From the NCBI RefSeq assembly GCF_029637605.1, contig NZ_CP121261.1, forward strand, positions 3,968,001-4,032,000: a stretch of 64,000 nucleotides of DNA. Reading direction: 5' to 3'. This DNA is from Achromobacter spanius (GTDB lineage Bacteria > Pseudomonadota > Gammaproteobacteria > Burkholderiales > Burkholderiaceae_B). Below, one piece after another: positions 59,731 through 64,000 of this stretch. A program made the position numbers and the translations under genes. Every line of letters starts with the position of its first letter. Position 1 is the stretch's first letter. The notes beneath the pieces are model-generated. The model was not told the origin of the DNA. It made no database searches and worked only from the letters and a program-made list of their open reading frames with translations.

Positions 59731-59926
59731 GCGTTCTGCCCGCTTTGAGGGCGAGCCATGCAGGCAGCTCGAAGCTCCGCACGCTTATGGGCGAACCGTG
59801 CTGGCAGCTCGAAGCGCCGCCCGCTTTTGGGCGAACCGTGCTGGCGGCTAGAAGCTCCGCCCGCTTTTGTGGGCGAACCGTGCTGGCGGCTAGAAGCTCC
59901 GCCCGCTTTTGTGGGCGAACCGTGCC
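59731..59926. repeat. Minisatellite: about 4-5 tandem copies of a 40-42 base unit
   Basis: The unit is roughly GCAGCTCGAAGCTCCGCCCG followed by CTTTTGGGCGAACCGTGCTG. Four nearly identical copies plus a diverged partial one sit head to tail, each with a small CGCCCGCTTTTGGGCG-type hairpin. It fills most of the 357-base gap between trmL and the ComF gene; no gene is credible there. Two of the copies carry a 2-base insertion. Confidence 0.88.
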
Positions 59927-59982: not shown

Positions 59983-60846
59983 TCACGGCGTGCGGGCAAC
60001 CACCAGCACCGTTACCCCGGCTGCGCCCGCCGCCAACAGCGCGACTGCGGCGGCTTGCACGGTGCTGCCGGTCGTCATGACGTCGTCCACTACCGCCACG
60101 TGGCGGCCGCGTACCACTGTCGAGGCTTTGAACAGGCCGGCGGCGACCTGGCGCCGCGCGTGGCGGCCCAACGCCGTCTGCCTGGGCGTTTCCCGGCGCC
60201 GCCGCAGCGCTTGCCGGACCAGCGGCAGGTTCAGTTCGGCCGCCAGGCTGCGGGCGATTTCAGCCGCCGGATTCATGCCGCGAGCACGCAGCGACGCGCG
60301 ACTGGCGGGCACGGGCGCCAGCAAGACGCCGTCGGGCAGACTTGGTTCGTGCCGGATGGCATCGGCCAGCAAGCGGGCCAGCACCGGCGCCATGCTCAGG
60401 CGCAGTTGCGTCTTCAGCATCCGGATCAGCGCGTCGGCGGGCGGCGCATAGTCAAAGGCCGCGATCGTCCGCGCATAGGCCCTTGGTGCGCCCAGACAGG
60501 CGGGGCAAATTGGGGCTGGCAGGGGGGCCGGTGCGAGCACCAGTGCCGGGGCTGCGGCTGGGCTTGGGCTTGGGCTTGGGCTTGGGGCCGAGGCCGCGTC
60601 CTCGATCAACGCCGAAGCCACCGCCGAAGCAATACCCGGCAACCGAAGCGCGCAGCGCGGGCATCTCGGGCGGCCGCCTGGCGGCGCGGCGGTGATGTCG
60701 TCCGCGCAGCCGCCGCACAGGCGCGCACCGGCCACCCGCGCCCCGCACAGCGGGCAATCGCAGCCCACGCAGGACCAAAGCCGCCGCCCCATGGCCTGTA
60801 GGGACAATCGAATTCGCCGGCCGGGATGCGCAATAATGGATGCCAT
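59983..60846 (-). CDS. ComF family protein (phosphoribosyltransferase)
   Basis: A 287-residue protein. An N-terminal Cys-rich zinc region (CPLCGARVAGARLCGGC, then CPRC and CPAC) leads to a phosphoribosyltransferase domain with VAVVDDVMTTGSTV (about 253-266). ComF proteins act in DNA uptake or DNA metabolism. Between the Cys pairs lies a Ser-Pro and Ala-Pro-rich insert (about 88-111) encoded partly by four copies of GGGCTT. The start is uncertain: ATG at 60846 or at 60792. Divergent from the BioC-type gene. Confidence 0.87.
   Translation of the reverse strand: MASIIAHPGRRIRLSLQAMGRRLWSCVGCDCPLCGARVAGARLCGGCADDITAAPPGGRPRCPRCALRLPGIASAVASALIEDAASAPSPSPSPSPAAAPALVLAPAPLPAPICPACLGAPRAYARTIAAFDYAPPADALIRMLKTQLRLSMAPVLARLLADAIRHEPSLPDGVLLAPVPASRASLRARGMNPAAEIARSLAAELNLPLVRQALRRRRETPRQTALGRHARRQVAAGLFKASTVVRGRHVAVVDDVMTTGSTVQAAAVALLAAGAAGVTVLVVARTP
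60560..60583 (-). repeat. Hexanucleotide repeat (GGGCTT)4 inside the ComF gene
   Basis: Four exact tandem GGGCTT units on the plus strand encode the Ser-Pro repeats of the ComF insert on the minus strand. Changes in copy number would stay in frame. Confidence 0.85.
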
Positions 60847-61840: not shown

Positions 61841-62431
61841 ATGACACTGCCCCCCCGCGCCACCGCCGACCCACACGCCTGGATCGACGTCTTCCGGGGG
61901 CAGATGCTGCGCTTTGCCACATTGCAACTGGGCCAGCCCGAAGCGGCGCAGGACGCGGTGCAGGAAGCCATAGCCGCCGCATTGGCCAAGCGGGGCGCGC
62001 TGGAAGATAGCGCGGCATTCAAGCAATGGGTGTTCGGCATCCTCAAGCACAAGATCGTCGACACCATCCGCAGCCGCGCGCGCCTGACGCATTTTCCAGA
62101 GGCCGACGACCCGGACATGATGGACGCCTGCTTCACGCCCAACGGCGAATGGACCGCGCAAGCCCTTCCGGCGGCTTGGGCGGCGCCGGATGAGGCCATG
62201 CAGAGCAAACAGTTCTGGCTGGTGTTCAGCACGTGCCTGGAGCGCTTGCCGCCCGCCAACGCGCGCGTCTTCATGATGCGCGAGTACCTGGAATTTGATG
62301 CCGTCGAAATCTGCGAGCGCCTGTCCCTGACACCCGGCGCGCTGCACATTGCCATGCACCGGGCCCGCCTGCGGTTACGCAGTTGCCTGGAACTGAACTG
62401 GTTTGCCGACCGAGGAGGCCGCAAATGCTGA
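61841..62431 (+). CDS. ECF-type RNA polymerase sigma factor
   Basis: A 196-residue sigma-70 family factor. Region 2 is around residues 15-80 (EAAQDAVQEAIAAALAKRG, KQWVFGILKHKIVDTIRSRA) and region 4 around 135-185 (LPPANARVFMMREYLEFDAV, TPGALHIAMHRARLRLRS). It overlaps the next gene by 7 bases, as sigma/anti-sigma pairs do. Downstream is the bufferin operon, with a matching ECF-type promoter candidate, so copper or another envelope metal stress is the likely trigger. Start ATG at 61841; the longer frame overlaps bioC. Confidence 0.93.
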   Translation: MTLPPRATADPHAWIDVFRGQMLRFATLQLGQPEAAQDAVQEAIAAALAKRGALEDSAAFKQWVFGILKHKIVDTIRSRARLTHFPEADDPDMMDACFTPNGEWTAQALPAAWAAPDEAMQSKQFWLVFSTCLERLPPANARVFMMREYLEFDAVEICERLSLTPGALHIAMHRARLRLRSCLELNWFADRGGRKC

Positions 62432-62667
62432 AATGCCGCGACGTCTCGCAACTGGCGTCTCAAGAACGCGAGTCGCCCCTGCGCCTGCCACAACGCATCG
62501 GCATGGCGATGCATCTGGCCATGTGCTGGCGCTGCCGCCGTTTCCGCCAGCAGATCGGCCTGCTGGGGGATATGACGCGGGCCTACCCTGGCCCGCCTGA
62601 AAACAATGCCGAATCGCGTCCGCCTGAACGCGACGGTGACGCTGGCCCCAAGCCGCCATCGCCCTGA
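62425..62667 (+). CDS. Small Cys/His-rich putative anti-sigma factor
   Basis: An 80-residue protein with MHLAMCWRCRRF (His29, Cys32, Cys35 region), an HxxxCxxC arrangement of the zinc-finger anti-sigma type, plus an early Cys (CRDVSQLAS). It has no membrane segment, so it would be a soluble sensor. The tail is Pro/Glu-rich. The start overlaps the end of the sigma gene and is preceded by GAGGAGG. Its role is inferred from the motif and position. Confidence 0.82.
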   Translation: MLKCRDVSQLASQERESPLRLPQRIGMAMHLAMCWRCRRFRQQIGLLGDMTRAYPGPPENNAESRPPERDGDAGPKPPSP

Positions 62668-62692
62668 ATTTACATTTCTTACACTTCTCCCC

Positions 62693-62718
62693 GTAAGGAA
62701 AGCGCTCTCTCGCGCGAC
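62693..62718 (+). promoter_or_regulatory. Candidate ECF promoter of the buf operon
   Basis: GTAAGG (62693-62698) and CGAC (62715-62718) are separated by exactly 16 bases, in the 120-base gap ahead of bufA1. It resembles the GTAAC-N16-CGA type recognised by ECF sigma factors that control bufferin operons in Caulobacter, as I recall it. Inferred by eye. Confidence 0.55.
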
Positions 62719-62787
62719 TACCTCTTGCCAGCACTGCAATCCGCGGTGCGGCAACCGTTCACGTAGATTCCCCTGGAGAGAGACATC

Positions 62788-63084
62788 ATGAAGACACGTA
62801 CCACCGCCGCCCTGGCACTGGCTTTTGGCGCCGCGTTCACCATGGCCGGCGCCCCCGCCGCCCACGCCGCAGACATGGAAAAGTGCTATGGCGTCGCCCT
62901 CAAGGGCAAGAACGATTGCAAGGCGGGCGCCGGCACAACCTGCGCGGGCAGCTCCAAGATCGACTACCAAGGCAACGCCTGGAAAAACGTGCCCAAGGGC
63001 ACGTGCGAGAAGACCGCGTCGCCCACGTCACCCACGGGCCAGGGTCAACTGAAGGAATTCAAGGAAATGAAGAAAGCGTCCTGA
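62788..63084 (+). CDS. bufA1: Bufferin precursor BufA1 (DUF2282)
   Basis: A 98-residue exported protein. A signal peptide of about 27 residues ends AAHAADME. The mature part has four Cys in the DUF2282 pattern: [19 protein letters not shown] and GTCEKT. DUF2282 proteins are precursors of bufferins, modified peptides in which MNIO enzymes convert cysteines to thiooxazole groups that bind copper. RBS GGAGAGAG precedes the ATG. The modifying enzyme gene follows after 17 bases. Confidence 0.9.
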
Positions 63085-63101
63085 CTTGCCCCTGGCGCGT
63101 C

Positions 63102-63989
63102 ATGAAATCGCTCCCTTTTCCAGACACGGCGTCCGGCCCGGGCCTTTCGGCCCAGGTCGGCGTCGGCTTGAAGCCCGAGCACGCGGACGCCCTGCTGGAC
63201 GGGGTGGCCGGCGTGGGGTTTCTGGAAATCCACGCCGAGAACTACATGGTTCCGGGGGGGCCGATGCACGCAATGCTGACCCGCTTGCGTGAGCGCTATC
63301 CCTTGTCTGTACACGGCGTGGGTCTGTCGCTGGGCGGGCCGGACCCACTGGACGAGGAACTGCTGGCCGGGCACCGCAAACTGCGCGATCGCTACGCGCC
63401 TGCGCTGGTGTCCGAGCATCTGGCCAGGTCTCGCGACGCCGGAGTATTTCTGAATGACCTGCTGCCATTTCCCTACGATGGCAAGACGCTGCGGCGCACC
63501 AGCGAACACATCGATGCGTTCCAGAACAGCCTGGGCCGCCGCATCCTGATCGAAAACCCGGCCACCTACCTGCGGTTTGACACGAGCCTGATCGACGAAG
63601 CGCAGTTCCTGGGCGAATTGCTCGCCCGCACGGGTTGCGGCCTGCTGCTGGACGTCAACAACGTGTACGTCAGCGCGGTGAACCATGGGTTCGATGCGCG
63701 CGGCTATCTGGGCATGCTGCCGCTGGATAGCGTGGGAGAAATTCACTTGGCTGGCCATCACCGGCAAGTCGACACCGACGGCGCCGTGGTGCTGATCGAC
63801 AGCCATGACGCTCCCATCTCCGAGCCCGTTTGGGCACTGTATGAATACGCGCTGCGCGCGACCGGACCCGTTCCCACGCTGATTGAGCGCGACGGCAACA
63901 TCCCGCCCCTGGCCGACTTGCTGCATGAGGCGGCACGCGTCCAGGCCTGCCTGGCCAAGCTGGATGCCGCACAGGTGACGCCGCCATGA
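63102..63989 (+). CDS. bufB: BufB, DUF692 multinuclear iron oxidase (MNIO)
   Basis: A 295-residue DUF692 protein with a TIM-barrel. Metal ligand motifs are FLEIHAENYM (about 40-49), SVHGVGLSLGG, LIENPATYL (about 150), LLDVNNVYVSAVNH (about 187-200), EIHLAGHH (about 215) and IDSHDAPI, followed by LIERDGNIPPL. MNIOs use iron centres to oxidise Cys of a partner precursor, here BufA1. It ends overlapping the ATG of the next gene (ATGA), the BufC partner. Start ATG at 63102. Confidence 0.93.
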   Translation: MKSLPFPDTASGPGLSAQVGVGLKPEHADALLDGVAGVGFLEIHAENYMVPGGPMHAMLTRLRERYPLSVHGVGLSLGGPDPLDEELLAGHRKLRDRYAPALVSEHLARSRDAGVFLNDLLPFPYDGKTLRRTSEHIDAFQNSLGRRILIENPATYLRFDTSLIDEAQFLGELLARTGCGLLLDVNNVYVSAVNHGFDARGYLGMLPLDSVGEIHLAGHHRQVDTDGAVVLIDSHDAPISEPVWALYEYALRATGPVPTLIERDGNIPPLADLLHEAARVQACLAKLDAAQVTPP

Positions 63990-64000
63990 CAGCCCTGCGC
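63986..64000 (+). CDS. bufC: BufC (DUF2063), first codons only
   Basis: The ATG at 63986 overlaps the bufB stop (ATGA) and opens MTALR at the window edge. In bufferin operons the DUF2063 partner BufC follows bufB in this coupled way. Assignment is by context only, as just five codons are visible. Confidence 0.6.

Follow-up and report, generated by a model that had tools for sequence, protein, structure and literature searches.

Which switch turns a bufferin operon on? What does so is poorly settled, and a locus at the end of the 64,000-nucleotide stretch of Achromobacter spanius DNA analysed here (the window; C1:3968001-4032000 of a 6,474,880-base single-contig genome) poses the question in a minimal form. 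Here, we found the bufferin genes bufABCD downstream of a gene for an extracytoplasmic function (ECF) sigma factor and a gene for a small zinc-associated anti-sigma (ZAS) protein, all six on the + strand. We consider it likely that the complete bufABCD operon is carried with its own sigma/ZAS switch as one cassette, and that the sigma factor reads the promoter of bufA.

A bufferin operon behind a sigma/ZAS pair

The window edge cuts bufC; bufC, bufD and the hairpin behind them were read from the host genome sequence past that edge and are given window-equivalent positions. The features of the locus are as follows:

61841..62431, + strand: ECF sigma factor, 196 amino acids, TIGR02943 family (Pfam and TIGR02943 above cut-off)
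62425..62667, + strand: predicted ZAS-type anti-sigma factor, 80 amino acids, C4/H30/C34/C37, no membrane segment (NF052368)
62693..62720, + strand: promoter-like site GTAAGGA-N16-GACTA, 67 bp 5' of the bufA start (motif search)
62788..63084, + strand: bufA1, DUF2282 bufferin precursor, 98 amino acids, four Cys (PF10048)
63102..63989, + strand: bufB, MNIO maturase, 295 amino acids (PF05114, NF050167)
63986..64000 in the window, continuing to window-equivalent 64747 (L002:6986-7747), + strand: bufC, DUF2063, 253 amino acids (PF09836)
window-equivalent 64790-65302, beyond the window (L002:7790-8302), + strand: bufD, DoxX, 170 amino acids (PF07681)
window-equivalent about 65367-65398, beyond the window: strong hairpin 3' of bufD (-21.9 kcal/mol, z -8.0)

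The sigma gene starts 7 bases after the stop codon of a methyltransferase gene, the open reading frame (ORF) of the anti-sigma protein overlaps the sigma gene end (62425 versus 62431), and bufC starts 4 bases inside the end of the bufB ORF, the last 15 bases of the window being its start.

Judged from profile matches, the structural part is a complete Buf1 bufferin operon of the ordinary, known kind; precursor, MNIO, DUF2063 and DoxX genes form the core of bufferin clusters (PMC12452194). The original prediction had named a DUF2282 precursor with four conserved cysteines, a DUF692 (MNIO) enzyme and the coupled start of a third gene in the buf order, and these assignments held, ORF positions included. 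BufA matches DUF2282 (PF10048) at 86.5 bits (Pfam cut-off 22.4) and the NCBIfam BufA2 model at 26.3 bits, under its cut-off of 60; its cysteines 33, 44, 52 and 73 align and are invariant in 66 aligned rows, two of which are the window's own locus. BufB matches both the MNIO family (PF05114, 332.5 bits, cut-off 25) and MNIO_BufB (NF050167, 355.1 bits, cut-off 310), and at 19 of its H/D/E/N positions the residue is the same in at least 62 of 65 aligned rows, again with two rows from the window's own locus. On extension past 64000 the third gene proved to encode DUF2063 (PF09836, 86.3 bits, cut-off 27.2), with a DoxX gene next (PF07681, 57 bits, cut-off 23.6); the NCBIfam HvfC and HvfX models scored these two under their cut-offs. 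The signal peptide of BufA was judged by eye, the maximum 19-residue Kyte-Doolittle (KD) mean of the precursor being 1.58, at residue 7, and a search of solved structures with BufA gave no match at E values up to 1. According to the legend of Fig. 3 in PMC12452194, the precursor carries its modifications on the two central cysteines and a disulphide between the outer ones. By analogy, BufA would be modified at its cysteines and would bind copper.

Which regulator stands before this operon? An ECF sigma factor and a tiny Cys/His-rich protein had been expected directly upstream, and the profiles agree. The sigma factor matches Sigma70_r2 (34.1 bits) and Sigma70_r4_2 (41.1 bits), both above the Pfam cut-off, and TIGR02943 at 202.7 bits (cut-off 162.2). 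The 80-amino-acid protein matches NF052368 (antisigmaE) at 62.1 bits (cut-off 50) and nothing in Pfam; a homologue search with it returned itself and one 86% relative only. It fits the ZAS pattern C-x23-26-H-x3-C-x2-C as C4-x25-H30-x3-C34-x2-C37, and the spacing C-x25-H-x3-C-x2-C is found in all 87 loci with a match, its own included. It contains no hydrophobic segment (maximum 19-residue KD mean 0.37), in contrast to the NrsF of one relative, in which 55 of 194 such windows have a KD mean of at least 1.6. The membrane anti-sigma factor NrsF is not found at this locus, where the second gene is that of the NF052368 protein. The host genome has one MNIO, one DUF2282 and one NF052368 protein. By its sequence the regulator is thus a sigma/ZAS pair, not the SigF/NrsF pair known for Buf1, and it is probably this sigma factor with its small anti-sigma protein that forms the switch on the bufferin genes. 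As in characterized ZAS proteins, the anti-sigma factor may bind zinc, inhibit the sigma factor and release it. The literature searched, which included passages of PMC3511200, PMC12452194 and PMC7907618, contained no report of a ZAS switch for Buf1; PMC12452194 gives NrsF as the Buf1 anti-sigma factor, and its main text does not contain the words zinc or zf-HC2.

A promoter-like motif before bufA

The pattern GTAAGRA-N15/16-GACYA has a single match in the 6.47-Mb genome, 67 bases before bufA, against 5 matches for a reversed control pattern. Compared with the published neisserial sigmaE consensus, GTMAGBWTT-N12/13-CGTCTAAH (PMC2893595), GTAAGG and the spacing fit, WTT does not, and the -10 element reads CGACTA instead of CGTCTA; for the published-type short form, GTMAG-N16/17-CGWCTA, one -10 base was therefore widened to admit the window's site. 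A wider regulon did not emerge from this form, since its 4 genome sites stand against 21 for the reversed control, which makes the other three not credible.

Is the motif shared by relatives with the same regulator? With one mismatch allowed and within 300 bp of bufA, the short form occurs in 14 of 40 ZAS-linked regions versus 1 of 25 other Buf1 loci, and 200 permuted motifs put to the same test gave a mean of 0.445/40 and a maximum of 4/40. Of the 40 regulator-linked regions, 38 have the refined motif GTAAG[AG][AC]-N14-16-GAC before bufA, as against none of the 25 others, and there is no reverse-strand match; the motif was, however, tuned on those 40 regions, many of them mutually related. 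The 40 include L004 and L014, added because their genomes carry the pair 3.6 and 6.5 kb away. Three loci first placed among the 25 (L025, L030 and L031) also have the pair within 4 kb; with these moved, the counts become 38/43 versus 0/22 for the refined motif and 15/43 versus 0/22 for the published-type form. At the Pasteurellaceae loci L097, L104 and L122 we observed five exact published-type matches 5' of the DoxX gene, a precursor being read only in L122. Before the sigma gene, an exact match occurs in one relative, L035 (G019).

Matches within the sigma coding sequence fall on the same region-4 codons in many Comamonadaceae sigma genes; we attribute them to codon conservation and left them out of the counts, although they are part of the total of 173 matches in 924,507 bases on both strands. 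An unbiased enumeration of dyads mostly picked up the homology near the gene start, and the promoter did not emerge from it.

The association was also followed from the side of the precursor. Among 300 genomes sampled across the order, 96 carry DUF2282, and the best 30 of these loci were used. Within about 8 kb to either side, 6 (L218 among them) have a sigma/ZAS pair, 5 a SigF-like sigma factor and 19 neither. The refined motif is present at 12 of the 30. NF052368 scores above cut-off somewhere in the genome for 11 of the 12 motif-positive loci versus 10 of the 18 motif-negative ones (Fisher p 0.049). A GTAAC-type site occurs at all five SigF-like loci (the fifth being G436) and at one ZAS-linked locus, L215; four of the five SigF-like sigma factors have a confirmed NrsF gene next to them. 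The association of motif and regulator is clear in the set derived from the sigma factor and weak in that derived from the precursor.

The cassette and its relatives

Are the regulator pair and the operon inherited as one unit? Of 43 congeneric genomes searched for the methyltransferase gene that precedes the cassette in the window, 42 have it; 30 of these loci were inspected. In 28 the methyltransferase lies directly beside the next gene (YbdK-like, by eye) and the cassette is absent; in the other two, the window and G168, all six genes sit between them. In the closest empty genome, G261, the flanks of the cassette match at 94 and 96%. The regulator pair and bufABCD are thus one cassette with clean empty sites. 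In G168 all six frames are intact and 86-98% identical to those of the window (sigma factor 97%); in a further congener, G248, the Buf1 operon is a different one and adjoins an ECF sigma factor just 26% identical. A foreign base composition was considered and rejected: the GC content of the cassette is close to that of the window (0.650 versus 0.653), so that it is the empty sites that argue for insertion. No flanking repeats were seen, by eye, at the junctions examined. The cassette was possibly gained before the split of the two species, or lost several times.

Beyond the genus, scanning named genomes with the sigma factor yielded 79 loci, with a ZAS gene in 78 and bufA or bufB genes in 38, of which 27 belong to Hydrogenophaga, Rhodoferax or other Comamonadaceae; among loci with nearly full flanks, 28 of 57 carry bufA or bufB. 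The sigma gene of 31 loci is preceded by bufA and bufB on the opposite strand. Across 250 genomes of the window's family, a close sigma factor occurs in 10 and DUF2282 in 26, and 7 of the 10 have both, in every case within 7 kb of each other on a shared contig. In the sigma tree the window shares a long branch with G168 and Achromobacter sp. UMC46. In tblastn, Pasteurellaceae sigma factors beside msrAB or an EGKCG operon matched at about 39-43% identity. The pair of Pasteurella canis (L122) adjoins genes for DoxX, a precursor with EGKCG repeats, not DUF2282 as here, and an MNIO, and a further ORF there is not matched by the DUF2063 profile.

Three relatives merit separate description. In Haemophilus sp. 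FF7 (L106:4376-6688) the sigma/ZAS pair lies opposite a gene that resembles MsrAB by eye, and between them is an exact published-type motif match. In Achromobacter sp. UMC46 (L044:5974-8630), the closest named sigma relative, the ZAS gene is present, no buf genes lie within 6 kb, and the next long ORF resembles an EAL-domain protein (by eye). At L160:3639-8266 (G033) the sigma/ZAS pair is followed by a second ECF sigma gene and a hydrophobic ORF of 219 amino acids (NrsF-like by eye); after these two tandem switches comes bufABCD with a GTAACC-type site, a possible intermediate in regulator exchange.

Two repeats lie further upstream in the window. A minisatellite of 4.6 copies (unit about 40-41 bases, 89% matches; 59738-59925) is located between genes upstream of the methyltransferase. 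A perfect TGGGCT hexamer array (4.7 copies; 60559-60586) lies in a ComF-like gene (- strand, by eye), where it encodes a Ser-Pro run and may be a length-variable site.

Control of the operon and its meaning

Buf1 operons adjoining ECF sigma genes have already been described (PMC12452194). Caulobacter CC3252-CC3257 (PMC3511200, PMC12452194) shares the DUF2282-MNIO-DUF2063-DoxX order and an adjoining ECF sigma gene, but its anti-sigma factor is NrsF with six membrane segments, where the window has the 80-amino-acid ZAS protein. In Cupriavidus metallidurans, gigPABT/rpoQ-rsqA (PMC10304878, PMC11022561) combines the same four structural genes with an ECF sigma/anti-sigma pair; there, however, the arrangement of the pair is divergent and a membrane location is predicted for RsqA. 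The gig genes are induced by copper and gold (PMC10304878, PMC11022561).

Judged by sequence, the switch in the window differs from the usual Buf1 regulator, SigF/NrsF, and resembles the stress switch of Haemophilus and Neisseria. The ZAS Cys/His positions of Neisseria MseR are identical to C4/H30/C34/C37 (PMC2893595), and HrsE of H. influenzae, the partner of RpoE2, is a 67-amino-acid cytoplasmic protein of the ZAS kind (PMC7907618). Among these systems an MNIO-DUF2063-DoxX operon stands under the sigma factor, with a promoter of similar form; RpoE2 is required for induction of the DoxX/COG3220 (MNIO)/DUF2063 operon by hypochlorous acid (HOCl) in H. influenzae (PMC7907618). Different from the window, these sigma factors, termed ECF group 13 in PMC7907618, also control msrAB (PMC2893595, PMC7907618). 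The likeness is one of anti-sigma factor, operon and promoter form.

How firmly can the sigma factor be tied to the bufA promoter? Besides the tuning of the refined motif, several observations weigh against this link. In the order-wide sample the motif is present at 2 of 6 pair-linked loci, 0 of 5 SigF-like loci and 10 of 19 with neither, so that nearness of the pair fails to predict it. In 41 of the 79 sigma loci, bufA and bufB are both missing from the stretch examined, some of these stretches being short. When the bufB label is followed on the sigma tree, where 48 of 92 rows have bufB in their stretch, it changes 27 times, versus a mean of 30.8 for shuffled labels with 47 of 500 shuffles as low; linkage of sigma and bufB is therefore at best weakly clustered, and short stretches blur the signal. 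No such site was found before the window's sigma gene, where it would suggest autoregulation. Finally, expression of meningococcal sigmaE was unchanged by the oxidants tried (PMC2893595), and reading the signal as an oxidant is therefore not safe.

Could the pair then be a mere neighbour of an operon whose bufA depends on a housekeeping promoter or on a copper regulator with its gene elsewhere? The order-wide counts (2/6 versus 10/19) would suit such an arrangement, as would C. metallidurans, where RpoQ control of the similar gig genes has yet to be demonstrated (PMC11022561); still, the genome-unique site before bufA, the split of the refined motif (38/40 versus 0/25) and the common cassette with its clean empty sites speak for more than proximity, and we regard this explanation as unlikely. 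The stress served may also be another one (oxidant, gold or mercury), copper binding being incidental. The HOCl-linked relative RpoE2 (PMC7907618), the response of the gig genes to gold as well as copper and the described MerC-Buf1 fusions (PMC12452194) point that way, and we hold it to be unlikely as well. The label of a metal-stress circuit, which the original prediction had conditionally attached to the region, is unproven, because oxidants were the stress in the work on the best-studied relative, RpoE2/HrsE. A cassette that is decayed or unused, from which the peptide is made and stays unmodified, would fit the rarity in the genus (2 of 30 loci inspected) but hardly the six intact frames shared with G168 at 86-98% identity or the MNIO positions kept in at least 62 of 65 rows; we consider it very improbable.

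For the preferred reading, a self-contained cassette in which the sigma factor reads the bufA promoter, we propose the following course. In resting cells the ZAS protein, its zinc held by C4, H30, C34 and C37, would keep the ECF sigma factor inactive in the cytoplasm; as the analogous RsrA, MseR and HrsE suggest (PMC2893595, PMC7907618), this hold would last as long as the thiols and zinc of the ZAS protein stay undisturbed. A thiol-reactive or zinc-displacing stress, such as an oxidant or excess cytoplasmic copper, would free the sigma factor; copper could act at the zinc-thiol site or via oxidation. The freed sigma factor would read one promoter, that of bufA. BufB with BufC would convert the central cysteines 44 and 52 of BufA to thiooxazoles, and BufA would be exported to the periplasm and bind copper there, with BufD assisting in the membrane; this modified, copper-binding output is modelled on Buf1.

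More broadly, and with slightly less than even confidence, we suggest that Buf1 has two unrelated controls, a membrane SigF/NrsF switch and a cytoplasmic zinc-thiol sigma/ZAS switch, that the ZAS family serves EGKCG as well as DUF2282 peptides, and that the switches were exchanged more than once. If true, the bufferin output in many Burkholderiales would follow the oxidant or the cytoplasmic thiol/zinc state and not a membrane signal. The locus offers a minimal test case, with one sigma factor, one 80-amino-acid anti-sigma factor, one predicted site in the genome and one operon. If our reading is right, copper-binding thiooxazole peptides would be tied to a switch that is already linked to hypochlorite in Haemophilus.
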